Source of the DNA: Gammaproteobacteria bacterium
Lineage (GTDB): Bacteria; Pseudomonadota; Gammaproteobacteria; Chromatiales; Chromatiaceae
Reading direction: 5' to 3'
Assembly: GCA_020445255.1 (NCBI GenBank)
Contig: JAGRGY010000026.1
Location: 1,100 to 65,099 of the forward strand
Length of the DNA: 64,000 bases
Made by a program: the position numbers and the translations under genes. The notes under the pieces were generated by a model that searched no databases, was not told where the DNA came from, and was given only the letters and a program-made list of their open reading frames with translations. Within the stretch, counting starts at the first letter, position 1, and every line of letters starts with the position of its first letter. Below are positions 1,414-33,983 of the stretch, piece after piece.

Positions 1414-2007
1414 ATGAGGGGGATGAAGTTGAAAAAATCACTTATAGGCGCTGCGATTGTCGCAGCATTAGGATTGGCATCGTTCGGTGCGAATGCGGCG
1501 CAGGTCACCGTGATGCACGTGACGACCGGTACGTTCACCGGCGGTGTAGCAGTTAACACGCCGTGGTCTGGCGACCTTATGATGGATGTAGACTCGGGCC
1601 TCAATGCGATCACCATCATGATCCCGAACGCGTTTGGATACTCAGGAGGTCAAGTTAGCATCGGTTCCATCGGTACTGGCTTCCATGTTGATGACAGCGA
1701 TCTTTCGATGGTGGACATGACGAACCTCGCCATCACTTGGTCGTTTGCTCCCGGTGCGATCTTCCCGATCGGGAACGAGAACGATGGTGGAGTCGATACG
1801 ACAGGGCTGGCCATGCAAACCATTTCGGGCACGATCGGTGGCGGAGCGTTTGATCTTACCGTCACCGGTGGTTCTGGCATCGGTCCAAGCACGTGGACGA
1901 TGGCTGGTACGTATGAGACGACTGCTGTTCCAGTTCCGGCAGCTGCCTGGCTGCTGGGTAGCGCACTGGTCGGCCTGGTGGGTGTTGCTCGTCGCAAAGA
2001 GGCGTGA
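1414..2007 (+). CDS. VPLPA-CTERM sorting-domain protein
   Basis: A secreted protein of about 197 residues. The N-terminus has a Lys-rich start and a hydrophobic core ending GANAA, a signal peptide. The middle is Gly/Thr/Asp-rich beta-type sequence with no recognised domain. The C-terminus (about the last 27 residues) has the tripartite exosortase tag: the motif VPVPAAAW, a hydrophobic helix LLGSALVGLVGV, and basic ARRKEA. This is the VPLPA variant recognised by exosortase XrtD, and an XrtD is encoded at 22054-23628. ATG 1414 or ATG 1423 may be the true start; both leave the signal peptide intact and neither has a well-spaced ribosome site. A sigma-54-like promoter lies upstream and a strong terminator downstream. 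Confidence 0.85.
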   Translation: MRGMKLKKSLIGAAIVAALGLASFGANAAQVTVMHVTTGTFTGGVAVNTPWSGDLMMDVDSGLNAITIMIPNAFGYSGGQVSIGSIGTGFHVDDSDLSMVDMTNLAITWSFAPGAIFPIGNENDGGVDTTGLAMQTISGTIGGGAFDLTVTGGSGIGPSTWTMAGTYETTAVPVPAAAWLLGSALVGLVGVARRKEA

Positions 2008-2047
2008 GTCGCCTGATAATCGACCAGTTCACACTGTAGGGTATTGT

Positions 2048-2078
2048 GAAGGAGCCCTTCTAGGGCTCCTTCTTTTTT
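2048..2078 (+). terminator. Rho-independent terminator of the VPLPA-CTERM gene
   Basis: A perfect 10-base stem, GAAGGAGCCC (2048-2057) with GGGCTCCTTC (2063-2072), has a 5-base loop and is followed by six T residues. It sits 40 bases after the stop codon. Confidence 0.93.
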
Positions 2079-2122
2079 GTCTTTTACGTAACGTTGCGTT
2101 TTTGACCCGACGTTACCCCTTG

Positions 2123-2149
2123 TTGAGTAGCGGTTCGGTTTAGAGTCCA
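2123..2149 (+). repeat. IS3 element terminal inverted repeat, left
   Basis: Reads TTGAGTAGC, seven variable bases, then TTTAGAGTCCA. It is the inverse of 3270-3296 except in the middle block. Confidence 0.85.
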
Positions 2150-2996
2150 GGGTCAAACGTAGCCGCCTTTGCAGCGAGCTGCTTGGCATGCTGAACGGGC
2201 GTCAGCCCGCCAAGTGTCTTCTTCGGTCTTTCCTCGTTGTACTCGCGGACCCAGGCGCGGAGGACCGCCCGGGCGTGGTTGAGGCTGACGAACCAATGCT
2301 CGTTCGGGCACTCGTCGCGTAACCGACCGTTGAAGGATTCAATGTACGCGTTCTGGTTCGGCTTGCCCGGCTCGATTAAGCGCAGGGCGATGCCGTGACG
2401 ATGTGCCCAGGTCAACATGGCCCAACCGGTAAATTCCTTGCCGTTGTCCGTTCGGATGATCGATGGCCTGCCGCGGAGCGCGCAGACCTCATCCAGCAAT
2501 CGCACCAGATGGTCACTGCCAATCGCGTGCTCCGGAATCACGGCCACCGCCTCGTGCGTGGCGTCGTCGACGATGGCCAAGCATTTGAGCGCCCGACCTG
2601 AGGCGATCCGATCGAAGACGAAATGCATCGACCGGACTTCATTGGCCGCGCCAGGCCGGATCAGCGGCTGACGATCCCCAACCGGAATCTTCTTGCGCCG
2701 CCGTCGGCGCACCTGCAGTTTCTCTTGCGCGTACAGCCGCTCGACGCGCTTGTGATTGACTCGATGCCCGGCCTGGCGCAGCTTGAGGTAGATCATCGGG
2801 GCGCCTTACCGGCGATATCGCTGCGCTATGTCCACGATCTGCTGGCGCAGCTCGGCGTTGCTGTCCGGCCTGGGCATGTAGCGCAATGCCGAGGCACTCA
2901 TGCCGACGACACGCAGCGCGTGCCGCTCGCTCATCCCGCGCTGCTCCTTGAGCCGCACCACTTCCCGACGGGCCGGTGCGGTCACCACTTTTTTCG
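2140..2996 (-). pseudogene. IS3 transposase orfB, broken by an in-frame stop
   Basis: Integrase-core (DDE, rve) transposase half of the IS3 element. The reading frame runs from the frameshift site at about 2994 to the stop at 2140. DDE residues are visible: D in HFVFDRI, D in [10 protein letters not shown] in [16 protein letters not shown] at 2806-2808 splits it: the frame reads RYRR[13 protein letters not shown] where relatives have RYRRYG(Y/A)RMIYLKL, so a Tyr codon has become TAA. Both halves are in the same frame, so a single nonsense mutation explains the break. The 3' half could start at ATG 2796, but it would lack the N-terminal helix-turn-helix part. Confidence 0.9.
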
Positions 2997-3251
2997 CAGG
3001 ACTTCTTTCGTCACTTCGTTCTCGGGCAGGGCTTCTGCCAGCAGCTTCTTCAGCCGCGCATTCTCCGACTCCAACACCTTGAGGCGCTTGGCGTCCGACA
3101 CGTCCATGCCACCGAACTTGCTGCGCCAGAGGTAGTAGCTGGCCTCCGAGAAGCCATGCCGCCGGCACAGCTCCTTGACCGGGACTCCAGCGTCCGCCTC
3201 CTTCAAAAAACCGATGATCTGCTCTTCGCTGTATCGCTTTTTCACGTCCAA
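2982..3251 (-). CDS. IS3-family transposase orfA
   Basis: An 89-residue protein of the IS3 orfA (HTH_Tnp_1) type. It starts MDVKKRYSEEQIIGFLKEAD, has the helix-turn-helix CRRHGFSEASYYLWRSKFGG, and a leucine-zipper-like helix (DAKRLKVLESENARLKKLL) used for OrfA/OrfAB multimerisation. It ends LRKKW directly at the slippery site for -1 frameshifting into orfB. It is full length, but the fusion product would end at the orfB stop. It matches the IS407-like subgroup by pattern. Confidence 0.92.
   Translation of the reverse strand: MDVKKRYSEEQIIGFLKEADAGVPVKELCRRHGFSEASYYLWRSKFGGMDVSDAKRLKVLESENARLKKLLAEALPENEVTKEVLRKKW
2988..2994 (-). promoter_or_regulatory. -1 programmed frameshift slippery site A-AAA-AAG
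   Basis: On the minus strand the orfA frame reads CGA AAA AAG TGG TGA. Slipping one base back on A-AAA-AAG gives GCG AAA AAA GTG GTG ACC, the orfB frame. The heptamer sits one codon before the orfA stop region, the classic IS3 arrangement for making OrfAB. Confidence 0.85.
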
Positions 3252-3269
3252 TCTCCTTCGTCATGGGAT

Positions 3270-6097: not shown

Positions 6098-6610
6098 ATG
6101 GCGGCTTGGTATCTCGCGCACACGAAGGTCAGACAGGAGCTGGTGGCCCAGGCCAACCTGGAGCGCCAGGGATTCGAGGTCTATCTGCCGATGATTGCTG
6201 CCGCGCGCCGCCGTGCCGGACGGTGGCTCGCTGCCGTCGAGCCACTGTTTCCCGGCTATCTGTTCGTCTCGCTCGATCTTGGCCTGGACAACATTTCATC
6301 CATCCGGTCAACCCGCGGCGTCAACTCGCTGGTCAGATTCGGTCCCGAGTTGCGACCGGTGCCCGACGCAGTGGTCGACGCCCTGATTTCCGCCCAGGAC
6401 GGCGATCGACAGACCCCGATCGCGCCTGCCGAACTGTTCAGGGATGGTGACCCGGTATGTTTCGCCGAGGGGCCACTGGCCGGTATGCAAGCGATCGTCC
6501 GCGGTCGTTCAGGTGCCGACCGGGTGGCCGTTCTGCTCTCGCTTCTGGGGCGGGAGCAGGAGGTGGTCGTGTCGCCCGACTCGATCGTGCCGAAGGATCT
6601 TCTTTCGTAG
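6098..6610 (+). CDS. rfaH: RfaH-type transcription antiterminator (NusG paralog)
   Basis: A 170-residue NusG-family protein. The N-terminal domain starts WYLAHTKVRQELVAQANLERQGFEVYLPM without its first Met-Ala-Ala, shown here in two blocks: WYLAHTKVRQE and LERQGFEVYLP; PLFPGYLFV follows, typical of NusG/RfaH. The C-terminal KOW-like domain ends GREQEVVVSPDSIVP. RfaH is recruited by an ops element in nontemplate DNA and then keeps RNA polymerase going through long surface-polysaccharide operons while recruiting ribosomes. An exact ops 12-mer lies at 15098-15109 in this locus, and the remains of a second copy lie at 14726-14941. The start is ATG 6098 after GAGGGGAG; an in-frame upstream ATG adds 25 unsupported residues. 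Confidence 0.9.
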   Translation: MAAWYLAHTKVRQELVAQANLERQGFEVYLPMIAAARRRAGRWLAAVEPLFPGYLFVSLDLGLDNISSIRSTRGVNSLVRFGPELRPVPDAVVDALISAQDGDRQTPIAPAELFRDGDPVCFAEGPLAGMQAIVRGRSGADRVAVLLSLLGREQEVVVSPDSIVPKDLLS

Positions 6611-11907: not shown

Positions 11908-12852
11908 TCAGTGATAATATCGCCACAGCAGTGGCCAGGTAACGAATGTAACCAGGAGTTTTTTCCACGACTTCATTTCTTTTCGCCATCGGTCGTCACA
12001 CCTGATTTCCACCATGCCACGGTCAAATCTGGATGGGTTTCCTGAAATGGTGTGATGCGCAGACATCAAAACATCAGATGTACCGGAGAGGATTTTGAGA
12101 AATTCGCCGGTCGTCCTTCCCATATATGAAGCCAAGTAACCAAGGGTTTCTGTCGGATTGGCGGCGAGCCCTTCATATGTGATTCGAACGTAGTCGTGTC
12201 TGCGGGCTACTAGCTCCGTCGATATGTTGTTCACCATCCATTTTAGCGCGCTACGCAGAGTGGAAACGGTTGGCATGTACTCGACTCTATCAACGATTTC
12301 CTTTCGGATTTTTCGCTTTTGTCGAGAAAATGTAACTGCCCGGCTATCTCTGACGACGTGAATCAATTTGATGCGTAAGTTACTGTAACGAAGCAAGAGG
12401 TAAGCAAACGGCACTGCTTTTGATGAGTCAACGATGATTTCCGCATCGGTGACTTTGGAAATCGAGCGATACAACTCATCGTAAGATGAGATTATGGATT
12501 TCACTATGTCTTTCTTGCGCCCTGTATTTACGCCGAACAGTAGCGCAGGAAATCTCAACATCGAGCCGATATTGCGGTATACAAGGTATTCGTTTTCCGA
12601 AAGTCGCCTCTTTCGGCGGTCGTACTCTATAAGTATATCGTTCCATGTTCCGCAGCTATCGAAGCTTTCGCCGCAGCCACAGAGTTGGTTGTCCACCACA
12701 CCGCGCGACCAAATGAAAATCAATTCGCCAACAGATACGACACGGTCTAGCTCGCCCAGCAGCATGTCAACCAAGGTGGTGCCGCTCCTCCCCTCGCCAA
12801 CGAGCAAAACAACTGTCGGATCCGTAGGAAGTGATTCAGGTTGACTGGACAA
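11908..12852 (-). CDS. Sulfotransferase (PAPS-dependent)
   Basis: A 314-residue protein with the two PAPS-binding motifs of the sulfotransferase family: the 5'-phosphosulfate loop VGEGRSGTTLVDMLLGEL (residues about 18-35) and the 3'-phosphate motif IHVVRDSRAVTFSRQ (about 175-190). It probably sulfates sugars of the polysaccharide made by this locus, or its lipid-linked precursor. The start is a TTG at 12852, the first start codon before the P-loop. It is the last gene of a minus-strand group headed by the GT26 gene at 14498. It is notably AT-rich compared with the right half of the window, suggesting transfer. The acceptor is not known. Confidence 0.85.
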   Translation of the reverse strand: MSSQPESLPTDPTVVLLVGEGRSGTTLVDMLLGELDRVVSVGELIFIWSRGVVDNQLCGCGESFDSCGTWNDILIEYDRRKRRLSENEYLVYRNIGSMLRFPALLFGVNTGRKKDIVKSIISSYDELYRSISKVTDAEIIVDSSKAVPFAYLLLRYSNLRIKLIHVVRDSRAVTFSRQKRKIRKEIVDRVEYMPTVSTLRSALKWMVNNISTELVARRHDYVRITYEGLAANPTETLGYLASYMGRTTGEFLKILSGTSDVLMSAHHTISGNPSRFDRGMVEIRCDDRWRKEMKSWKKLLVTFVTWPLLWRYYH

Positions 12853-12992
12853 GGTATTGGCTCACTGAGTCTGATCTTGGTGTTCGTGAAGCATAACAAA
12901 TAGACATTGAAAAGAATGCGGACATATTTAAGATAGGTTTTGTTGCTTACGGGGTGCTTGGCTGGTCTCTCATGGCTTGAATATGTGTGAAG

Positions 12993-13688
12993 TCACAATG
13001 ATATCTCACGCATTTTCGAATACAGCCGGAGCGCGACCGCAAGGTCGCGATCAAATTTCTTCAGCTCGTCTCGCATGCGATGCTTGATCGCGGTACGTGA
13101 TGCCGACGGGCGGGCAACGCGAGCTTCGGAGAGATGGCCGCCGGAGTCTTTCATCTCCATATTTTCGACCGCGGTGCGGATTTCAGCGTCAGTTTCGTCG
13201 GTTGGGTGGAATTCTGCCAGGTTAAGTGCGAAGCGGCCGTTCAGGGCAAGAATGACCTTATTGAAATCTGTCGTTGTTGTATTGAAGTCCGATACCACGA
13301 AATCGCGGGCCAGAGGAAGCGCTGCCTCGTGGAAAGAAACGTATCTTCGGATGGCGAGTGGTATATCTACATTTTCTTCACGAATGACATACGAGAGAAT
13401 GGCGTCTTCCGGGCTTCGGATCAGTAATAACGTCGGTATTCTTTCCTGATAGGCTCGTTTGATTTGAGCTATCGCATGTGTGTGCCGGGCTAATTCAATG
13501 GCGGCCGGCTGGCTCGTTTTCAGTACCGCAACTGCGTATGTGTTGGCGCAGCGGGGATATCCCTCCACGACGAGTTGCGTCGATTTCGAGATCAGAAGGC
13601 CATGATAGCGCCGCCGCAGGGGCATGATTCGATAAAACAACACAGGGTGTCGCCGAATATAGTCCAGAATCGATTCTCTCGGCTTCAC
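12993..13688 (-). CDS. Sulfotransferase-like protein
   Basis: A 231-residue protein shorter than its neighbour. It has a PAPS-loop-like motif VVEGYPRCANTYAVAVL (about residues 40-56) and a second motif LLLIRSPEDAILSYVIRE (about 87-104) in the position of the 3'-phosphate-binding segment. The P-loop lacks the canonical SGTT and reads CANT, seen in divergent sulfotransferase-like proteins of polysaccharide loci. The start is GTG 13688, only six bases after the GT26 gene stop, so the two are probably co-transcribed. It may be a second sulfotransferase for another position; activity is unproven. Confidence 0.65.
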   Translation of the reverse strand: MKPRESILDYIRRHPVLFYRIMPLRRRYHGLLISKSTQLVVEGYPRCANTYAVAVLKTSQPAAIELARHTHAIAQIKRAYQERIPTLLLIRSPEDAILSYVIREENVDIPLAIRRYVSFHEAALPLARDFVVSDFNTTTTDFNKVILALNGRFALNLAEFHPTDETDAEIRTAVENMEMKDSGGHLSEARVARPSASRTAIKHRMRDELKKFDRDLAVALRLYSKMREISL

Positions 13689-13694
13689 TGTTGC

Positions 13695-14498
13695 TTAATC
13701 CCGGTCGGTTGTGGCGTTGCGTACTGTCCTGCTGCGACTCAGTGTGCCGGGAAGATTCAGTAGAAATCGGGTGTTTGTTATCAAATAGCGTCGCCAAAGG
13801 CGCCGTGGTTCGGCCAGCAGGCGATAGAGCCATTCGAGCCCCAGTTGCTGGTAGATGAGGGGGGCGCGCTTTACGGTTCCTGCGTGAAAGTCGAATGCCG
13901 CACCAACGCCAATGAGAACCCCGCTTACCCGTTTTTGCTCCTGCTGCCGCGCCATCCAGATTTCCTGTCGTGGGCAGCCCAAACCGACAAAGACGAGACC
14001 AGCGGCAGTTGCATTGATCGTGTCGATGTAGGTTTGCTCCTCTTCTTCAGTCCAGGCGCCGAATCGTGGGCTAAGTGAGCCGCGCACATCAAGGTCAGGA
14101 AAGCGCTTTTTTATGTTGCTTTGCAAGCGATCCAGTGTCTCGGGGGTGGAGCCAAACAGAAACGCGCCAACGCCGTGGCGTTCGGCAGATTCACAGAGCC
14201 GCCACATAAGGTCGGGGCCGGCAATGCGAGTTTGATTGTTGTAGCCTTTTCGCCTCATTACCCATGCGATCGGGGCGCCGTCCGCAAGCACCATGTCGGC
14301 CTTTCGCAAGGCGGCAGCCAGCTGTTGGTCGTCCAGCGCGGTTACGGCCGAATGCACGTTGCACAAGCAGACGCCGCGCGGTTGATTGGACGAGGCCCAG
14401 CCAAGCAATCTTTCGGTAGCCTCGTTCCAACTGATTGCGTCGATGAACGTTTCGAGCACCTGGGTGCCGGGGCGATGGCTTTCCTGTTGAGTTGTCAT
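13695..14498 (-). CDS. WecG/TagA/CpsF family glycosyltransferase (GT26)
   Basis: About 267 residues. Family marks are CNVHSAVTALDD, ADMVLADGAPIAWVMRRKG, RIAGPDLMWRLCE, FLFGSTPETLDRL and VGLGCPRQEIWMARQ, then GVGAAFDFHAGTVKRAP. Members transfer ManNAc(A) or a related sugar to an undecaprenyl-PP-linked acceptor as an early step. With the WecA-like enzyme at 26070 this would make the second sugar addition. The start is set at ATG 14498; an upstream ATG adds a 24-residue tail without family similarity. It heads a minus-strand group with the two sulfotransferase genes. Confidence 0.9.
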   Translation of the reverse strand: MTTQQESHRPGTQVLETFIDAISWNEATERLLGWASSNQPRGVCLCNVHSAVTALDDQQLAAALRKADMVLADGAPIAWVMRRKGYNNQTRIAGPDLMWRLCESAERHGVGAFLFGSTPETLDRLQSNIKKRFPDLDVRGSLSPRFGAWTEEEEQTYIDTINATAAGLVFVGLGCPRQEIWMARQQEQKRVSGVLIGVGAAFDFHAGTVKRAPLIYQQLGLEWLYRLLAEPRRLWRRYLITNTRFLLNLPGTLSRSRTVRNATTDRD

Positions 14499-14725
14499 TC
14501 TTGGGGGATGCGGGGTTAGTCGAAAAAACGGGGGAATGCACAGTAGCGCGTGCCTCGTACGGAATTTCAATTATGCCGTGGACGGTGGAACACGCAAATC
14601 GTTGACTCTGCCTGGCCTGATGGTGATCGCAGTGGACGCGCAGAACCCTGTGCCCGACGCCCGCGCCGGAGGTTCGTGACCTCCTGCTTGACGTTTCCTG
14701 GCGGCGCATTACCCCGGACCGGCAA

Positions 14726-14941: not shown

Positions 14942-15012
14942 TGCGGATCCGGCCACATTTCATGTTCGTGCGTGCTTGTTCGAAATGCGTTGTCTGTGCT
15001 CTAATCTGCGTG

Positions 15013-15035: not shown

Positions 15036-15097
15036 TTCCCCGCACGCGTGCTACGCCGCGAGTTCCAGGCCGATCCGGGTGTGCCAAGCAACGGAAG

Positions 15098-15109
15098 GGC
15101 GGTAGCGTG
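15098..15109 (+). promoter_or_regulatory. ops element (RfaH recruitment site)
   Basis: GGCGGTAGCGTG is identical to the 12-base ops sequence of E. coli long surface-polysaccharide operons. It lies in the leader about 270 bases upstream of the EPS-associated MarR gene and the export operon, on the same strand. Downstream bases CACCGG...CCGGTG can form a short hairpin. An rfaH gene (6098-6610) and a decayed copy lie in the same locus. This indicates RfaH-dependent antitermination of the operon starting here. Confidence 0.85.
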
Positions 15110-15379: not shown

Positions 15380-15736
15380 TTGCCCGACGATCTGCCAAAC
15401 GACGTAACCACAACCGAGGCTCACCTGCTTGTCATGCGGCTGATCGAGGCGCAGCCGGAGCTGTCTCAGCGCGAGATTGCAGCGGCGCTCGGGATCAGTC
15501 TCGGCAAGACGAATTACTGTCTGCGCGCGCTGATCGCGAAAGGCTTTATCAAGGCGCGCAATTTCCGCAACAGTGGCGAGAAAATTCGATACCTCTATGT
15601 GTTGACGCCATTAGGCATAGAGCATAAGGCGAGGCTGTCCATGGCCTTTCTCGACCGCAAGCGCCGTGAATACGAGGCGCTGAGACGCGAGATCGAGATC
15701 CTCAGCCGCGAGGTGAACCCACCCGAAGGCCTGTGA
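15380..15736 (+). CDS. EPS-associated MarR-family transcriptional regulator
   Basis: A 118-residue winged-helix protein. LSQREIAAALGISLGKTNYC is the helix-turn-helix, followed by LRALIAKGFIKARNFRNSG and YLYVLTPLGIEHKARLSMAF, then a C-terminal coiled helix (KRREYEALRREIEILSREV). This is the pattern of the MarR-type regulator found in EPS loci (family MarR_EPS). It starts at TTG 15380; a shorter start at the internal ATG would remove part of helix 1. It lies between the ops element and the export operon, so it is probably co-transcribed and may tune it. Confidence 0.88.
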   Translation: MPDDLPNDVTTTEAHLLVMRLIEAQPELSQREIAAALGISLGKTNYCLRALIAKGFIKARNFRNSGEKIRYLYVLTPLGIEHKARLSMAFLDRKRREYEALRREIEILSREVNPPEGL

Positions 15737-15855: not shown

Positions 15856-16431
15856 ATGAATACCGCATTACCGATCATGGTGCGGCTGGTGGTGTTCTTG
15901 GGGCTGTCGTGGATGGTTGCGGGTGCCGCTGCAGACGGCGACGACAACAAGGGCTACCGGATTCAGCCCGGCGACGTTCTGCACATCGATGTATGGCATG
16001 AAGAGGAACTGCAGCGGGAGACCCTGGTCCGGCCGGACGGTGGTATTTCCTTTCCCCTGGTGGGCGACATCAATGCGGAGGGACGGACGGCGGTCGCACT
16101 GACCGCTGAGATAACCGAAAAACTCGTCCGCTTCATTCCGGACCCGGTGGTGACAGTAACCGTCGCCCAGGCGGCTGGTAACCGATTATACGTGCTCGGC
16201 GAGGTCGCGCGACCGGGTGAGTTCGCAATGAGTCGTCCGGTCAACGTCCTACAGGCGCTGGCAATGGCAGGCGGACTCACCCCTTACGCGGACCGTGACA
16301 GTATCCAGGTCTTGCGGGGAAGCGGCGATCAGCAGAAGGCCATGCCGTTCGACTATGCCGATGTGGCCGGTGGCAGGTCCCTGGAACAAAATATCCAGCT
16401 GCAACCCGGCGACGTAGTAATGGTTCCCTAG
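15856..16431 (+). CDS. Polysaccharide export protein (Wza-like, PEP-CTERM/EPS type)
   Basis: A 191-residue periplasmic/outer-membrane export protein. A signal peptide ending GAAA is followed by the poly_export domain (YRIQPGDVLHIDVWHEEEL; VRPDGGISFPLVGDI) and a SLBB domain (NRLYVLGEVARPGEFAM; LQALAMAGGLTPYA). It is the short exosortase-associated form, lacking the lipobox Cys and C-terminal helix of E. coli Wza. It would form the periplasmic exit path with the beta-barrel at 16454. AGGAGA precedes the ATG at 15856. Confidence 0.92.
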   Translation: MNTALPIMVRLVVFLGLSWMVAGAAADGDDNKGYRIQPGDVLHIDVWHEEELQRETLVRPDGGISFPLVGDINAEGRTAVALTAEITEKLVRFIPDPVVTVTVAQAAGNRLYVLGEVARPGEFAMSRPVNVLQALAMAGGLTPYADRDSIQVLRGSGDQQKAMPFDYADVAGGRSLEQNIQLQPGDVVMVP

Positions 16432-16453: not shown

Positions 16454-17626
16454 ATGCCTCATGCCGTGCGTCCAGCTTGTTGCGGATTGCTACCGATAAT
16501 CCTGTTGGCGTCGTCGACGGCTAGCTGGGCAGACGATTGGTACCTTGAGCCGCGCGCGAGCATGCAGGGATTCTATGACGACAATGTCGGCCTGGTCGTT
16601 TCGAATCCGAAGGCATCCACTGGCGCAGTGGCGCGCGCCGCGGCGAAAATGGGCAGACGATCGCAGGTGTTCGATATTAGCGTGGATGCGGAGTTCATTC
16701 GCCGGCAGTATTTCAACGATCCTAGCCGCAACACCACCGATTCCGTGATTGACGCCGACCTTGTCAAAGCAACCCGCCTGGATCGCTATGCCCTGAATGC
16801 ACACCTCGATCTGGATTCCACCGTCACCAGTGAACTGGCCAGTTCGGGGCTGACTCGCGTGCCGAAACGGCGCGTCCGCTGGCAGCTCGCTCCAAGCTGG
16901 CGCCACCAACTGATGCCGTTGTGGGGGGTGACTGCAAACGCCAGTTACCAGGATGTGAGTTATCGCGATGCCCAGCTCACCGGTCTGGTTGATTACACCT
17001 ATCTGACGCTGGGCGCAGATACGGACTATCGCTTTGACGAGAGGACGCAGTTGCTCGGTCAGGTCAGCTTTGCGCGCTACGAATCGGATCAGACCTCGAC
17101 GACGTCGGACACCACGGGGATTCTGGCCGGCATCGGCTACAATTTTTCGCCGACATGGTCGGCAAGAGCGCTGCTAGGTCTTCGAAAAACGGAGACATCC
17201 CAAACGACCTTTGCTGGTACCTCAACGGTGGACGATACTGGCTATCTTGTAGATATTTCGACCACCAAGCAGTATCAAACAGGTGCGCTCACCGTCGGGT
17301 TGAATCAGTCCACAAATCCAAGTGGCTCGGGGGAATTGCTGGACTCCGAACATCTGAGCATGGATTGGAATCAGCGCTTGTCGCATCGCTGGCGCTTCAC
17401 ACTGACGGCTGATCGGTACAAGAATGAACGGTCGTCTGGTATGGCTGGCACCAACGATCGTCAGTATCTGAACATCAGGCCTGGTCTCCGCTATAAACTC
17501 GACCGTGAATGGTCGCTATCTGCCGCTTATCGGTATCGGTATCAGAAGTACGACGTCAACCCGGATTCGGCGACCTCGAACGCATTGTTGTTGACGTTGT
17601 CCTATCTCCCGGTCAGCAGAAAGTAA
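16454..17626 (+). CDS. EPS-locus outer-membrane beta-barrel protein
   Basis: A 390-residue protein with a signal peptide (cleaved after TASWA) and alternating amphipathic beta strands throughout, e.g. YRFDERTQLLGQVSFARYES and YKLDREWSLSAAYRYRYQKY. It fits the beta-barrel family (BBP2_2; PEP-CTERM-associated type) that regularly follows the export protein in exosortase EPS loci and probably forms the outer-membrane channel. It starts 22 bases after the export gene stop; the next gene begins 33 bases downstream, so all are one operon. Confidence 0.85.
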   Translation: MPHAVRPACCGLLPIILLASSTASWADDWYLEPRASMQGFYDDNVGLVVSNPKASTGAVARAAAKMGRRSQVFDISVDAEFIRRQYFNDPSRNTTDSVIDADLVKATRLDRYALNAHLDLDSTVTSELASSGLTRVPKRRVRWQLAPSWRHQLMPLWGVTANASYQDVSYRDAQLTGLVDYTYLTLGADTDYRFDERTQLLGQVSFARYESDQTSTTSDTTGILAGIGYNFSPTWSARALLGLRKTETSQTTFAGTSTVDDTGYLVDISTTKQYQTGALTVGLNQSTNPSGSGELLDSEHLSMDWNQRLSHRWRFTLTADRYKNERSSGMAGTNDRQYLNIRPGLRYKLDREWSLSAAYRYRYQKYDVNPDSATSNALLLTLSYLPVSRK

Positions 17627-17659: not shown

Positions 17660-19411
17660 ATGGAAGAAGCAACAAGCCTTGGTTTGGCCGAATATCTTTC
17701 CGTTCTGCGCAGGCGCCGATGGCAGCTGATTATCCCGGCCATGGTGCTGTTCCTGTTATTCGCGCTTGCGGCGATCGTCATTCCGTCGACTTACCGTTCG
17801 CAGGCGACCATCCTGATCGAGCAACAGGAGATTCCTCAGGACTTGGTCCGGTCGACGGTGACCAGCTTCGCGGATAAACGCGTGCAGACGATCAGCCAGC
17901 GTGTCATGACGACCGCCAACCTCGGCAAGATCATCGAAAAGTACGATCTGTATCTGGAGGAGCGCGAGCAATTCACCGTTGCCACCGTTGTCGAGACAAT
18001 GCGTGAAGATATCGAGTTGAAGATGATCAGTGCCGATGTGGTGGACCCACGCAGCGGCCGTCCGACCTCCGCGACGATCGCGTTTTCGCTGTCCTACGAC
18101 AACGAGTCGCCGGAAAAAGCGCAGAAAGTGGCGAACGAACTCACTTCGCTGTTTCTGAACGAAAACATCAAGGAGCGCCGCCAAGTCGCGCAAGAGGCAT
18201 CGCGGTTCCTCACCGAAGAATCCGACAAGCTGGCGGCGCAGATCGCAGAGATGGAGGCCAAGCTGGCGGTATTCAAAGAGGAAAACAGTAACAACCTGCC
18301 CGAATTGCAGGCACTTAACCGCGAGTTTCTGCGTCGCACCGAGGATCAGTTGATCCGCAACGAGCAGGATGTGCGCAGCCTTGACGAGCGGATCATCTTC
18401 CTTCAGGGGCAGATGGCGCAGACGGACCCCTACAGCAATATGTACTCGGCAACCGGTCAGCGTGTGTTATCCGCAGCGGACCGTTTGAAGGCACTCGAGG
18501 CGGAATACACCTCGGTTGCATCGCGTTACAGCGCGGACCATCCAAGTCGGATCGCGATGGAGCGGGAGCTGGTTGCCTTGCGCCAGGAAGTGGGTGGTGT
18601 GGACATTGCCGACCTGCAGCGCAAACTCACGGAGCTAAAGGGCGAGTTGGCAGCATTGAGCAAGCGCTACTCGACCGAGCATCCGGATGTAAAGGGCAAG
18701 CAGCGCGCAATCGACGGGGTGTTGAAGCAGATCGCTGATGCGAAGTCCAGTCGACGCAAGGCTGCTGCTCCGACCGATCAAGCCGATAACCCGGCCTATA
18801 TCCAGTTGCAGTCCAGCCTGCAGGCCGCACAGGCGGAACGTCGCTCGCTGCTGGAGGCCAGGAAGGCGCTCGAGGAGCAGCTAAAGCAACTCGAACAGCG
18901 GCTTGTCGATGGGCCTCGGGTGGAGCAGGAGTACTTGGCGATGATGAGGGAATATGACAATGCCGTGTTCAAGTTCAAGGAGATGAAGAACAAACAGGTG
19001 GAAGCGCAGCTCGCCGAATCCCTCGAGACGGAGAGCAAGTCGGAACGCTTTGTACTCGTCGAGCCACCGTTGTTGCCTGAAGAGCCCGACAGCCCGAACC
19101 GGATCGCCATCCTGCTGGTTGGCTTCATCGTCTCGCTGGGTGGCGGTGCGGCAAATGTGGGTCTGCGCGAAGCTGTGGACGACGGTATCCATGGTGCCAA
19201 GGCATTGGCCGCCGTGGCGGGCATGCCACCGCTGGCGGTAATCCCGTATATCGAAACGCAGGCAGACCGAAGCAAAAGACGTTGGCGGAACATTCTGGTG
19301 TTCCTGGGTCTGGTTGGGTTGATCGTCATTGTGCTGGCGCTGATCCATTTCCTGTATCGACCGCTTGATGTCTTGTATTTCCAGGTTCTGCGGCAATTCG
19401 TATTGTTGTGA
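17660..19411 (+). CDS. Wzz/GumC-type chain-length determinant
   Basis: A 583-residue inner-membrane co-polymerase. TM1 is at about residues 25-45 (IIPAMVLFLLFALAAIVIP), followed by the Wzz domain, a long periplasmic coiled coil at about 180-460, then Pro-rich PPLLPEEPDSPNR before TM2 (about 480-500) and a third C-terminal hydrophobic segment (NILVFLGLVGLIVIVLALIH). It belongs to the PEP-CTERM-locus chain-length family. It has no fused kinase domain; the partner kinase is the next gene. It would set polymer length and link polymerase to exporter. Confidence 0.9.
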   Translation: MEEATSLGLAEYLSVLRRRRWQLIIPAMVLFLLFALAAIVIPSTYRSQATILIEQQEIPQDLVRSTVTSFADKRVQTISQRVMTTANLGKIIEKYDLYLEEREQFTVATVVETMREDIELKMISADVVDPRSGRPTSATIAFSLSYDNESPEKAQKVANELTSLFLNENIKERRQVAQEASRFLTEESDKLAAQIAEMEAKLAVFKEENSNNLPELQALNREFLRRTEDQLIRNEQDVRSLDERIIFLQGQMAQTDPYSNMYSATGQRVLSAADRLKALEAEYTSVASRYSADHPSRIAMERELVALRQEVGGVDIADLQRKLTELKGELAALSKRYSTEHPDVKGKQRAIDGVLKQIADAKSSRRKAAAPTDQADNPAYIQLQSSLQAAQAERRSLLEARKALEEQLKQLEQRLVDGPRVEQEYLAMMREYDNAVFKFKEMKNKQVEAQLAESLETESKSERFVLVEPPLLPEEPDSPNRIAILLVGFIVSLGGGAANVGLREAVDDGIHGAKALAAVAGMPPLAVIPYIETQADRSKRRWRNILVFLGLVGLIVIVLALIHFLYRPLDVLYFQVLRQFVLL

Positions 19412-19466
19412 TCGGAATTCGGTGGACGTATTCATTCGACAATTGATATTGGAGAGCACGAACAGC

Positions 19467-20243
19467 ATGGACAGAATGAAACCGAGCCCTGACGGCTCGT
19501 TGCGAGACCCGTCAGCCATTCCTGGTGCTCAGAAAATCGTTTATACGCAGACCCGGCGATTACAAACGAATGATGCTTACCTGAAAGATCACCGTGTGAT
19601 CGCGGAATCGACGGATGCGGTCGGAGCGTCTTATAAAGTCCTGCGAACCCACGTCCGCCAGCGGATGCTTGCCAACCAGTGGCAGACACTGGCGATCACC
19701 AGCCCCAATGAGGGAGCGGGCAAAACGCTCACATCGATCAATTTGGCTATCAGCCTGGCGCGAGAGGTCAATCAGACTGTACTTTTGGTCGATCTCGACC
19801 TGCGTCGCCCCAGCATTGCCCGTTACTTCACCAACGAAAATCTGCCGGGAATCAGTGATTATCTTTTCAATGATGCACCGTTGAGTGAGCTGCTTTTCAA
19901 TCCCGAAGGGGTCGAGCGTCTGGTCGTGTTGCCGGGGAACAAGGCGATGGAATATTCCTCCGAGACGCTGTCGTCACCAAAGATGGTGGCGCTTGCCGAG
20001 GAACTGAAAACACGCTACCCGTCGCGCCTGGTATTGCTGGATATGCCCCCGTTGCTGGCCTGCGACGATGTGCTCGCATTTTCACCGTACTTCGATGCAG
20101 CGCTTCTGGTGGTCGAGGAATCTGCGACGACCAATGCCGAGGTTAGGCATTCTCTCGATCTGCTGCGGCGGACCAATCTACTTGGCCTGGCATTGAACAA
20201 ATCGCGTGACGAAGTGCCGAGCTACGGTTACGGAGCGCGTTGA
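19467..20243 (+). CDS. BY-kinase-like tyrosine autokinase of the EPS locus
   Basis: A 258-residue cytoplasmic P-loop protein. Walker A SPNEGAGKTLTSINLA (about 82-97), Walker A' LLVDLDLRRPS (about 110) and Walker B LVLLDMPP (about 192) are the three motifs of bacterial tyrosine kinases that partner Wzz-type proteins. The expected Tyr-rich tail is reduced to PSYGYGAR. Phosphorylation cycles of this partner normally control polymer length. ATG 19467 follows GGAGAG by ten bases; the frame is open further upstream but overlaps the previous gene without family similarity. Confidence 0.88.
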   Translation: MDRMKPSPDGSLRDPSAIPGAQKIVYTQTRRLQTNDAYLKDHRVIAESTDAVGASYKVLRTHVRQRMLANQWQTLAITSPNEGAGKTLTSINLAISLAREVNQTVLLVDLDLRRPSIARYFTNENLPGISDYLFNDAPLSELLFNPEGVERLVVLPGNKAMEYSSETLSSPKMVALAEELKTRYPSRLVLLDMPPLLACDDVLAFSPYFDAALLVVEESATTNAEVRHSLDLLRRTNLLGLALNKSRDEVPSYGYGAR

Positions 20244-22053: not shown

Positions 22054-23628
22054 GTGGTGGAGATCTTGAACAAGACGTATACGGTCAACGTGCTGGCTTT
22101 GATAATTGGGTTGCTTCTCAGCACGGCGCTCGCCTTGCTTGTTGGGTGGTCAGGTGTTGTGCACGCAGTAGAAAACTGGAGTCGCGAGGAATACAGCTAC
22201 GGCTACTTCGTGCCTCTGTTGGTTGCCTTTTTTATTTGGCAAAAAAAGAACGATTTGGTCGAAGTGCCGTTGCAGGCGTCTTGGTCAGGTGTCGTCTTGG
22301 CCGCGATTGGGCTGCTGGTCATTGCGTTTGGTGAGCTTGGCACGTTGTATGTGATGGTTGAGTACGGCTTCGTGGTTACCCTCCACGGCATCGCGTTGGC
22401 CCTGCTCGGGTGGAAAGGTTATCGCTTGGTAGCGCCACCGCTGGCGCTGTTGTTCTTTGTAGTGCCGTTGCCGAATTTTTTCTACAACAATCTGTCGGCG
22501 TACCTGCAGCTGGTGTCGTCCCAGATCGGGGTGTGGGTTGTTCGTGCCTTCGGCATCAGTGTTTTCCTGGAGGGAAACGTTATCCAGCTGGCTACGATGA
22601 AATTGCAGGTTGCCGAGGCGTGCAGCGGACTGCGTTACCTGTTCCCGCTGATGGCGGTGGGGTTCATCGTTGCTTATATGTATCGTGCGCCGCTTTGGAA
22701 GCGTGCGCTGCTTTTTCTGTCGACGATCCCGATCACTGTGTTGATGAACAGTATGCGCATCGGTCTGATCGGGGTTTCCGTCGAGTATTGGGGCTCAGAG
22801 ATGGCCGAGGGTTTTCTGCACGATTTTGAAGGCTGGGTGGTGTTCATGGCCTCGCTCGGTGTGCTGATGATGGAAATGTGGCTGCTTAATCACATCGGTC
22901 GGACGCGGCAGCGATTTCGGGATGTCTTCTACCTGGAGTTGCCGGGCCCTTCCGATACTGCATGGACATACGGCTCGCGTGCCACTGCCCCACCGTTCAT
23001 CGCACTGGTCGGGGTGCTCGTCGCCGGGACGGTGGCGATGCAGGTTCTCCCGCATCGCGAAGAGGTCGTGCCTTCACGCGAGTCCTTTGCCGGCTTTCCG
23101 ATGGCGATCGCCGACTGGGAGGGTAGGGGTGGAATGCTCGAGTCGATCTATATCGATGCACTGAAGTTCGACGATTACCTGCTGGCCGACTATTTTCACG
23201 CCGGCGCGCCGCCGATCAACCTGTACATCGCCTACTACGGGTCGCAGCGCAAGGGGGCCTCGGTGCACTCGCCCAAGAGTTGCCTGCCGGGCGGGGGCTG
23301 GGAGATGTCGAGCTTTGGCCAGTATGTCGTCGACGGCGTAACGGTCAATGGCCAACCGTTAAAGGTCAACCGCTCGATCATCCAGAAGGGCGAAAACAGG
23401 CAGCTGGTTTATTACTGGTTCCAACAGCGAGGCCGGGTAATGACGAACGAGTATATCGTCAAGTTGAATCTGTTCCGCGACGCGATCGTTCGTAATCGTA
23501 CCGACGGTGCCTTGGTTCGGCTGGTATTGCCAATGCCACAGACGCTGGATGTCGCCGACGCCGACAGGGAACTGAGCACGTTCGCGCGGGTGCTTGCGCC
23601 GCTGCTGACGAGCTATATCCCGAACTGA
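22054..23628 (+). CDS. xrtD: VPLPA-CTERM exosortase XrtD (exosortase-EpsI fusion)
   Basis: A 524-residue fusion. The N-terminal part (about 1-300) is an eight-helix exosortase with the catalytic Cys in VAEACSGLRYLFPL (about 190), Arg in LMNSMRIGLIG and His in GFLHDFEGW. The C-terminal part (about 315-520) is an EpsI domain (DDYLLADYFHAG; VHSPKSCLPGGGWEM). Exosortase plus EpsI in one chain is the XrtD arrangement, whose targets carry VPLPA-CTERM tags; two such proteins are in this window (1414, 30491). Exosortases cleave the tag in the inner membrane after Sec export. The start may be GTG 22054, GTG 22057 or TTG 22066. Confidence 0.9.
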   Translation: MVEILNKTYTVNVLALIIGLLLSTALALLVGWSGVVHAVENWSREEYSYGYFVPLLVAFFIWQKKNDLVEVPLQASWSGVVLAAIGLLVIAFGELGTLYVMVEYGFVVTLHGIALALLGWKGYRLVAPPLALLFFVVPLPNFFYNNLSAYLQLVSSQIGVWVVRAFGISVFLEGNVIQLATMKLQVAEACSGLRYLFPLMAVGFIVAYMYRAPLWKRALLFLSTIPITVLMNSMRIGLIGVSVEYWGSEMAEGFLHDFEGWVVFMASLGVLMMEMWLLNHIGRTRQRFRDVFYLELPGPSDTAWTYGSRATAPPFIALVGVLVAGTVAMQVLPHREEVVPSRESFAGFPMAIADWEGRGGMLESIYIDALKFDDYLLADYFHAGAPPINLYIAYYGSQRKGASVHSPKSCLPGGGWEMSSFGQYVVDGVTVNGQPLKVNRSIIQKGENRQLVYYWFQQRGRVMTNEYIVKLNLFRDAIVRNRTDGALVRLVLPMPQTLDVADADRELSTFARVLAPLLTSYIPN

Positions 23629-30490: not shown

Positions 30491-31216
30491 ATGTCGGGGA
30501 ATTGGGTGCGTCGGGGTCTGCTGGCGGCCTTGTTGACCGTCGGCTATGTGGGAACTACTGCTGCTGCGGTCGTCGAATACACCGGGCAGACCGTCAAATA
30601 CGTCTTCGATACCGGTGGCAGCTCGATCGATGACTATCTGGATCTCTATGCCAGTGCACACGTGCTGCCCGGAACGGATACGCTGCGGTTGACGCCCGAC
30701 GGCTGGATCGCCCTGGCTACGTTCGGTGCCTCGGGCAATTCAATAGACTTCAGCAACGATACGCTCACCTTCAGCGTCGTCTCGTTGGACAGCAACACGG
30801 CGATCGAATCGGTGTCGCTTTCCGGGGGCGGTGACTACTATCGGGTCGGTGGGTTTGTCGGCGTGGGTGGCGAGTTGCGCGTGAATTCTACCGATGTGGC
30901 CGGAATTACCGCCGGTGATTTCTCGACCAGTTCCACGATCGACAATCTTGTAACGACCCAATGGTTCGAACAGGCGAGCCTTGGCGGCTACAACGATGCG
31001 TCGTTGGTGGTCACGGTGGAAAACCTGCTTTCGGCTGGAATTGTCGACTTCGTTAACGGTGAAGTCGTGACGACGGGCATACTTGCCTTCATCGAGAAGA
31101 AGTTCGTGGATATCTCTGTCGGGACGACGACCGTGCCGATCCCGGCCGGGGCGCTGCTGATGGCGTCAGCGGTCGCAGGCCTCGGATTCGTACGTCGACG
31201 CCGCCGCGACGCGTAA
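30491..31216 (+). CDS. VPLPA-CTERM sorting-domain protein (second)
   Basis: A 241-residue secreted protein. An AGGAGG site seven bases before the ATG makes the start firm. The signal peptide ends TTAAA. The mature part is Ser/Gly/Asp/Val-rich with no recognised domain. The C-terminal tag is VPIPAGALLMASAVAGLGFV followed by RRRRRDA: the VPLPA-like motif, helix and basic tail. It is a probable XrtD substrate, released into or anchored in the extracellular matrix. It closes the EPS locus after prsT. Confidence 0.88.
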   Translation: MSGNWVRRGLLAALLTVGYVGTTAAAVVEYTGQTVKYVFDTGGSSIDDYLDLYASAHVLPGTDTLRLTPDGWIALATFGASGNSIDFSNDTLTFSVVSLDSNTAIESVSLSGGGDYYRVGGFVGVGGELRVNSTDVAGITAGDFSTSSTIDNLVTTQWFEQASLGGYNDASLVVTVENLLSAGIVDFVNGEVVTTGILAFIEKKFVDISVGTTTVPIPAGALLMASAVAGLGFVRRRRRDA

Positions 31217-32261: not shown

Positions 32262-33983
32262 ATGTTCAAACGAGTTGATTACCACGGTGGCGAGACGCCT
32301 CCTTCGCTGGTGGTGGCGCCCGAGCGCGCCGAGGACGTGAAATCGGCGGCGGCCGGGGTGGCGTCGCTCACATTGAACCAGCGCCAGTTGTGTGACCTGG
32401 AACTGCTGATGAGCGGTGCCTTCGCACCACTGTCCGGCTTCATGAACCAAGAGACCTACGATTCGGTCGTCGAGCGCCTGGGCCTGCCCGACGGCACGCT
32501 GTGGACGATACCGATCGTGCTCGACGTGACCGAGGCGTTCGCCGAGAAGTTGCAGCCGGGCGCACAGATCGCCTTGCGTGATACCGAGGGATTCATGCTG
32601 GCGATGTTGGATGTGTCGGACGTCTGGCATCCCGACAGGACCCGCGAGGCCGAGTTGGTGTACGGCACGTCCGACGCCGGCCATCCCGGTGTGCGCTACC
32701 TGAACGAGACGGTCAATCCGGTCTACGTCGGCGGGCGTGTGCAGGGCGTCGAACCGCCGGCCCATTACGACTTCATGGGGTTGTGGGATACCCCCGCCGG
32801 CATGCGTGCCGCGTTCGAGAACCTGGGGTGGCGGCGCGTGGTGGCGTTTCAGACCAACAAGGTGGTGCACCGTCTGCAGCGCGAGGTGGCGGTCAACGTC
32901 GCGCGCTCGCTGCAGGCCAACCTGCTGCTGCATCCGGCAGTCGGCAGCCATATGCCGGGCGATCTGCAGGTCTATGCACGTGTGCATTGCTACAAGGCGG
33001 TGCGGCGCTACTTCCCGGAGGGTCTTATGCGGCTGTCGCTGCTGCCACTCGCATCGCGTGTGGCTGGACCGCGCGAGGCACTGTGGCATGCGATCGTGCA
33101 CCAGAACTATGGCTGCACCGATTTCATCGTCGGCCCCAAGCACGCGAATCCGCCGCCGCGGCCCGATGGCTCCCGCTTTTACGACGCCGACGACTCGCGC
33201 GCGCTGATCGATGCGCACAGCGCTCGACTGCAGATCAATGTCGTGCACAGCGAACCGCACGGTTATGTCGCTGCGGAAAATGCGTTCATGCCCGTCGCGC
33301 AGGCACGCGAGCAGGGACAGGAGGTGCTGCAGTACACGGATTCGCAGCTCAGGCGCGACCTGGTCGCCGGCAAGAATCCGCCGGGCTGGTTCTCCTATCC
33401 CGAGGTGTACGAAGAGCTGCGGCACGTGTATCCGCCGCGCAGCCGGCAGGGGTTCACGCTGTTCTTCACCGGACTGTCCGGGTCGGGCAAGTCGACGCTG
33501 GCGAAGATCCTCTACGGCAAGCTCGTCGAAGGCGGGCGGCGCCCCGTCACGCTCCTCGACGGTGATGTCGTGCGCCAGAATCTGTCGAGCGAGCTGGGTT
33601 TCTCGCGTGCCCACCGGGACCTGAACATCCGCCGCATCGGTTTCGTCGCCAACGAGATCACCAAGAACGGGGGGATCGCCATCTGCGCACCGATCGCCCC
33701 GTACCGCCAGACCCGGCGTTTCGTCCGGGAATCGATCGAGCAGCATGGCGGCTTCGTCGAAATCCATGTCGCGACACCACTGGCCGAATGTGAGAGCCGG
33801 GACAGGAAAGGGCTGTATGCCAAGGCGCGCCAGGGACTGATTCCCGAGTTCACCGGGATCAGCGACCCCTACGAGGAGCCGGAAAACGCCGAGCTGGTGA
33901 TCGACACGTCGGACATGTCACCGATGGAATCGGCGCAGGTGGCCTTCCTGTATCTGCTCAAAGAGGGCTACATCGAAACCTGA
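32262..33983 (+). CDS. cysC: Two-domain APS kinase with degenerate ATP-sulfurylase-like domain
   Basis: 573 residues. Residues ~1-385 are ATP-sulfurylase-like, and ~395-573 are APS kinase with an intact P-loop FFTGLSGSGKSTLAK, LLDGDVVRQNLSSELGFS and the kinase lid region GLYAKARQGLIPEFTG. In the sulfurylase part, the substrate motif usually QTRNPxHRxH reads QTNKVVHRLQ, and GRDHAGPG reads GPKHANPPP. In Thiobacillus denitrificans a two-domain homolog with altered motifs is known to be an APS kinase without sulfurylase activity, so this enzyme probably makes PAPS from APS only. PAPS is the donor for the sulfotransferases at 11908 and 12993. Confidence 0.85.
   Translation: MFKRVDYHGGETPPSLVVAPERAEDVKSAAAGVASLTLNQRQLCDLELLMSGAFAPLSGFMNQETYDSVVERLGLPDGTLWTIPIVLDVTEAFAEKLQPGAQIALRDTEGFMLAMLDVSDVWHPDRTREAELVYGTSDAGHPGVRYLNETVNPVYVGGRVQGVEPPAHYDFMGLWDTPAGMRAAFENLGWRRVVAFQTNKVVHRLQREVAVNVARSLQANLLLHPAVGSHMPGDLQVYARVHCYKAVRRYFPEGLMRLSLLPLASRVAGPREALWHAIVHQNYGCTDFIVGPKHANPPPRPDGSRFYDADDSRALIDAHSARLQINVVHSEPHGYVAAENAFMPVAQAREQGQEVLQYTDSQLRRDLVAGKNPPGWFSYPEVYEELRHVYPPRSRQGFTLFFTGLSGSGKSTLAKILYGKLVEGGRRPVTLLDGDVVRQNLSSELGFSRAHRDLNIRRIGFVANEITKNGGIAICAPIAPYRQTRRFVRESIEQHGGFVEIHVATPLAECESRDRKGLYAKARQGLIPEFTGISDPYEEPENAELVIDTSDMSPMESAQVAFLYLLKEGYIET

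Follow-up and report, generated by a model that had tools for sequence, protein, structure and literature searches.

A Putative Locus-Encoded rfaH/ops/Winged-Helix Module at an Exopolysaccharide Operon and at Related Polysaccharide Loci

The ops Element and Its Locus

The 12-mer GGCGGTAGCGTG at 15098-15109 on the plus strand is an exact ops element and its sole copy without mismatch in the window, i.e., the whole 64-kb stretch of DNA analyzed here. Comparison with related loci indicates that it very probably functions as an ops site and belongs to a module, widespread at polysaccharide clusters, that is encoded in the locus and comprises rfaH, ops and a winged-helix regulator. What was observed directly is the sequence itself, how well it is conserved, that its occurrence depends on RfaH being present, and the gene order around it. 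The sequence-only reading of this DNA had placed an exact ops in the leader of an exopolysaccharide (EPS) operon and an intact rfaH upstream of it. Sequence and position bear out the first claim, and the second holds as well: rfaH (6098-6610, plus strand) runs from an ATG at 6098 to a stop codon ending at 6610 and encodes a locus-encoded, RfaH-type NusG paralog of 170 aa that scores 148.5 bits against TIGR01955 (cut-off, 144.5).

The rfaH gene is the first of a plus-strand group that also includes wzx and glycosyltransferase genes. It lies 8.5 kb from ops, and genes on the opposite strand (11908-14570, minus strand) separate the two, so that RfaH must act in trans in the window. Pieces of an IS3-family transposase (1650-3264, minus strand) are found ~3 kb upstream of rfaH, as might be expected if the locus were mobile or had been rearranged. 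The ops-bearing gap is bounded on one side by a WecG/TagA-type gene (13695-14570, minus strand) and on the other by the first gene after the ops leader, which has a TTG start and encodes a MarR_EPS winged-helix regulator (15380-15736, plus strand; TIGR04176, 145.9 bits with a cut-off of 88; HTH_24/MarR). That the gene directly after ops encodes this regulator and not an export protein is a detail absent from the sequence-only reading. The genes that follow on the plus strand encode a Wza-like polysaccharide export protein (15856-16431; TIGR03027, E = 5e-42, under the curated cut-off), an outer-membrane beta-barrel protein of the EPS export set (16454-17626; weak TIGR03016 match, OMP_b-brl), a Wzc-like polysaccharide chain-length determinant (17660-19411; TIGR03007, E = 4e-76) and a tyrosine autokinase (19365-20243; TIGR03018, E = 3e-46), the last of this tightly packed set. 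After two gaps of ~0.5-0.6 kb comes the gene for the exosortase XrtD (22054-23628, plus strand; TIGR04152, 594.5 bits with a cut-off of 400), and a VPLPA-CTERM protein is encoded at 30491-31216 (TIGR03370, 28.7 bits with a cut-off of 25.35). With XrtD above its cut-off and a VPLPA-CTERM protein, this is an XrtD/VPLPA-CTERM exosortase locus. A sulfotransferase-like gene (11908-12852, minus strand) and a gene for a bifunctional ATP sulfurylase/APS kinase (32262-33983, plus strand) flank the EPS locus, which hints that the polysaccharide may be sulfated.

Within the leader, a promoter-like TTGTTC-18-TCTAAT motif with an extended -10 (14976-15005, plus strand) would place ops ~90 nt downstream of the transcription start; it was recognized by eye and missed by the consensus scan and is therefore unsupported. 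Scans of the window for promoter consensus and intrinsic terminators gave no useful signal. Just 5' of ops is a possible remnant of a JUMPstart-type hairpin (15074-15095, plus strand) with a 4-bp stem, TCCG/CGGA, which is weak and not significant (p ~0.5), and the leader RNA of the window folds no better than its shuffles.

The motif is not enriched in this genome. Matches with at most two mismatches are at chance level in the window (14 vs. 10.5 +/- 3.3 by chance), and the 4.1-Mb genome contains three exact copies vs. seven of a reversed control pattern and, at one mismatch or fewer, 52 vs. 124 copies. Genome-wide enrichment was thus ruled out as support. Both other exact copies are within long open reading frames (ORFs), and only the copy in the window has a leader position. 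Since the exact copies outside the window are all intragenic, the idea that RfaH has further targets across this genome was also rejected. A variant, GGCGGTAGCATG, on contig 14 is located where a small ORF ends, upstream of a gene that looks glyoxalase-like by eye; this variant was taken to be a chance match. The excess of the reversed control over the 12-mer in this genome (L002-L003, L254-L280) may reflect avoidance of strong pauses, or perhaps codon bias. At the genome's rate of 3 per 8.2 million strand positions, ~3e-4 exact copies are expected in the ~0.8-kb gap on the right strand. For a 12-mer without genome-wide enrichment, it is conservation that decides, and position and conservation together carry the argument.

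Conservation of ops and Its Dependence on RfaH

MarR_EPS is absent from the same-genus genomes searched, which leaves a comparison of orthologous leaders without material. With the MarR_EPS protein as query, 80 related loci were collected from named genomes, and each genome was searched for RfaH, whose presence was defined as a score of >65 bits to TIGR01955 (the best NusG-type matches score ~64 bits or less). A leader ops was defined as a site with at most one mismatch within 350 nt of the start of the MarR match. Such a site is found in 30 of the 80 loci, 19 times as an exact copy, and RfaH is encoded in 29 of these 30 genomes. Where RfaH was not detected (35 loci), a leader ops is found once, with one mismatch, and an exact one never. 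The association with RfaH presence is very strong (Fisher p = 3.8e-9), a value that serves as a guide only, given the shared ancestry of the 80 loci and some incomplete assemblies. Conservation in related loci and co-occurrence with RfaH had been set as a check beforehand, and the 12-mer passed it.

Across 32 leader sites, substitutions are concentrated at positions 1, 10 and 12, and only 2 of 15 are inside C3-G8 (p = 0.004), the six-base ops core that RfaH reads in Escherichia coli (PMC5995543). Several RfaH-bearing loci without a leader ops carry ops elsewhere in the cassette (e.g., L026, L035, L075, L085 and L090). Some loci have more than one site. In L043, two ops-marR units with an exact ops are separated by 2.5 kb; L015 has a variant at -84 in addition to its exact copies at -7207 and -4132; and in L034, two further exact copies are found upstream. 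Could these be serial loading points for RfaH? L025, from an assembly that bears the label Hyphomicrobiales and has no detected RfaH, contains an exact ops at -2709 relative to marR, which may be attributed to a missing contig, misbinning or chance.

The spacing between ops and the MarR_EPS gene is 271 nt in the window, the longest but one, with a median of 54.5 nt elsewhere. This spacing, together with a hairpin weaker than those of the relatives and genome counts at or below the control, is what would be expected if the 12-mer of the window were a chance match and ops were real only elsewhere. We regard this explanation as very improbable, because few such matches (~3e-4) are expected in the gap on the right strand, comparably long spacings are found in L017 (297 nt) and L077 (180 nt), and the 12-mer shares with dozens of relatives the same kind of leader, the same family of downstream gene and an RfaH encoded in the locus.

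The working-site interpretation is also supported by a held-out sample chosen by RfaH alone and independent of MarR. A profile built from these RfaH proteins was run against 369 evenly drawn genomes of the class; the best 30 RfaH loci, ~3 kb each, were taken, and 34 nusG loci of similar length were used as the control. Of the 30 rfaH loci, 15 have an exact same-strand ops within ~1.5 kb of the gene, compared with none of the 34 nusG loci, and the reversed motif was found downstream of the gene in neither set. In most of the ops-bearing held-out loci, rfaH and ops are separated by an ORF of ~200-225 aa whose beginning resembles a winged helix. Its product has a conserved, DLAEIA-containing end and occurs in many gammaproteobacterial families (L286, L289, L294, L295, L302, L304, L308 and L310). 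By our own identification, it is probably the helix-turn-helix neighbor that PMC7593976 describes for one RfaH cluster.

Cassette Order and the JUMPstart-Like Hairpin

The commonest order of the cassette is rfaH, hairpin, ops and marR, in which ops is 50-290 nt past the rfaH stop codon; rfaH-HTH-ops, marR-rfaH-ops and ops-marR-rfaH are also found. In the relatives, the stem ends 1 nt before ops, with arms such as TGCTG/CAGCA, TGCCG/CGGCA and TGCGG/CTGCA. Of 64 sequences, 49 contain a complement to their own 3' arm, compared with a mean of 16 and a maximum of 25 when the arms were exchanged among sequences (300 trials). The arms of the hairpin 5' of ops in the relatives thus covary, and the architecture is that of JUMPstart (Rfam RF01707; Hobbs and Reeves, 1994, cited in PMC2864571), which likewise has a hairpin directly 5' of ops and polysaccharide genes downstream. 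It differs in that the hairpin sequences of the relatives vary too much for the Rfam gathering score, which was reached in none of 18 related loci. The window scores 14.9 bits against RF01707, under the gathering score of 35, and so falls outside the family.

The RfaH Proteins

The RfaH of the window has a NusG-type N-terminal domain (PF02357). Aligned with E. coli RfaH, it retains K10, R23, R73 and E48 and has the changes H20 to N, N70 to R, I93 to V and F130 to V (E. coli numbering). Hence, three of the four side chains with which E. coli RfaH reads ops (K10, H20, R23 and R73) are kept, and so is E48 among the autoinhibition residues, of which I93 and F130 are replaced. The AlphaFold2 (AF2) model has a mean pLDDT of 89.5, and its best informative Foldseek match is the ops-recruited RfaH 8phk (TM, 0.69/0.72). 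The C-terminal domain is predicted to adopt a NusG-like beta fold in this protein and in a second family member alike, a result that, without an alpha-helical control, does not discriminate. The beta models are only suggestive of an RfaH that may lack E. coli-type autoinhibition. Such a lack would agree with a published observation that genes for RfaH proteins predicted to be monomorphic tend to lie next to a long operon (PMC13015549).

In the set of 40 RfaH proteins whose locus contains an exact ops, position 70 is invariably Arg, position 73 is Arg in only 14 proteins and Leu in 15, and His occupies position 20 in only 7. In E. coli, Ala substitution of K10, H20 or R73 severely compromises RfaH recruitment (PMC5995543). 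Judged from the alignments, either another residue, for which R70 is the obvious candidate, may replace R73/H20, or these proteins may rely less on base reading.

That most RfaH proteins here lack R73 and/or H20 is also compatible with an explanation in which strong pausing of RNA polymerase is the sole reason for the retention of the motif, independently of RfaH, e.g., for leader folding or regulator binding; ops is indeed a consensus-type pause (PMC6391919, PMC7819879). Against this, 34 of the 35 MarR_EPS leaders without detected RfaH also lack ops, as do all 34 nusG loci, and the full 12-mer is retained beyond the needs of the pause consensus. We give this explanation as little credence as a chance match.

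Relation to Exosortase Loci

The sequence-only reading had further proposed a special link of ops and RfaH to XrtD, and this was not borne out. XrtD was found above its cut-off in 42 of 194 genomes of the family that were searched; RfaH is encoded in 12 of the 42, including the genome of the window, and 30 are without it. In the XrtD neighborhoods that were fetched, an exact ops is present in 4 of 11 RfaH-bearing relatives and in none of 29 RfaH-less ones, and in three of those four (G031, G155 and G226) the ops-marR-rfaH unit points away from xrtD. The flanks searched around the 80 MarR_EPS loci, which extend up to 10 kb, contain no XrtD homolog. The exosortase was thus ruled out as a constant partner of ops/RfaH by the XrtD counts and the flanks. 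An ops/RfaH pair dedicated to regulating XrtD-type EPS systems would account for the window itself and for the cassettes adjoining xrtD in G031, G155 and G226, but it is the least credible of the explanations considered, because most XrtD genomes lack RfaH, MarR_EPS loci lack XrtD nearby and all three cassettes diverge from xrtD. The XrtD counts and the divergent cassettes instead make exosortase loci just one of many kinds of polysaccharide locus in which the module is found. From these comparisons, the recurring unit is rfaH, ops and a small MarR/winged-helix regulator, and the exosortase link is incidental. Among open-access papers, none was found that links RfaH with an exosortase, and none that combines RfaH, MarR, exopolysaccharide and ops, although earlier reports of ops beside these genes may exist.

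Proposed Mechanism

Based on E. coli RfaH, from which pausing, recruitment, NusG exclusion and antitermination are inferred, we propose that RNA polymerase started upstream would pause at ops, where RfaH from the gene 8.5 kb upstream would bind the exposed non-template strand and displace NusG. RfaH would then remain on the polymerase, so that the EPS operon from marR_EPS (15380 to at least 20243) would be read without Rho-dependent loss and this long, weakly translated operon would be transcribed to its end. The proposed module has three components, rfaH, an ops that usually follows a JUMPstart-like hairpin and the gene for a small winged-helix regulator, and would range over the Gammaproteobacteria sensu GTDB, i.e., the classical beta- and gammaproteobacteria. 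Points against this explanation are the lack of motif enrichment in the genome, the 271-nt spacing, the weak hairpin, the 8.5 kb between rfaH and ops and the changes at H20 and F130.

Where ops just follows rfaH, a cis route may be envisaged in which the polymerase waits at ops while the trailing ribosome finishes RfaH. Tentatively, and with rather less confidence than in the working site itself, we propose that locus-encoded RfaH proteins of beta- and gammaproteobacteria may use the same ops as E. coli and read it differently, with R70 invariant and R73 and H20 dispensable, that in the commonest cassette order they may be loaded in cis, and that the window may represent a rearranged case acting in trans. 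The idea of cis recruitment has already been published (PMC7819879, PMC13015549), and a review favors it for NusG paralogs encoded in their own operons (PMC6391919); the new element here is the position of ops.

Comparison with Known Systems and Implications

The locus shares with the E. coli RfaH/ops system an identical 12-mer in the untranslated leader of a long surface-polysaccharide operon, an RfaH that scores above the curated cut-off and keeps K10, R23, R73 and E48, and, in the relatives, substitutions that avoid C3-G8. It differs in that rfaH is in the locus, whereas that of E. coli is a distant stand-alone gene, in that one leader target was found, compared with 16 ops sites in MG1655 (PMC7819879), in the changes of H20 to N, N70 to R and F130 to V, in the MarR_EPS gene after ops, and in residue 73, which across the group is usually not Arg. 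In the portions of PMC7593976 that concern RfaH clusters CL2-CL8 and other NusG paralogs (UpxY, TaA and LoaP), rfaH is likewise described beside EPS/glycosyltransferase genes, and cluster CL4 has a helix-turn-helix regulator; those passages give no ops, whereas here exact ops copies are found beside such genes, even where R73 is absent.

The same passages place the DNA-reading residues late, with R73 described as having arisen later, and these residues of RfaH are likewise reported as late in origin elsewhere (PMC7819879, citing PMC7593976). The exact ops copies beside locus-encoded RfaH proteins, some of which lack R73, suggest that ops recognition may be older or more flexible than the mapping of residues implied. 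According to a review, no information was available on the recruitment of NusG paralogs besides RfaH (PMC6391919), and the cassettes described here offer a testable recruitment site for locus-encoded NusG paralogs. The combination of ops and RfaH may also be used as a marker for RfaH-controlled polysaccharide loci beyond enterobacteria. From the loci compared, a locally encoded RfaH-ops switch seems to be widespread across distantly related bacteria.
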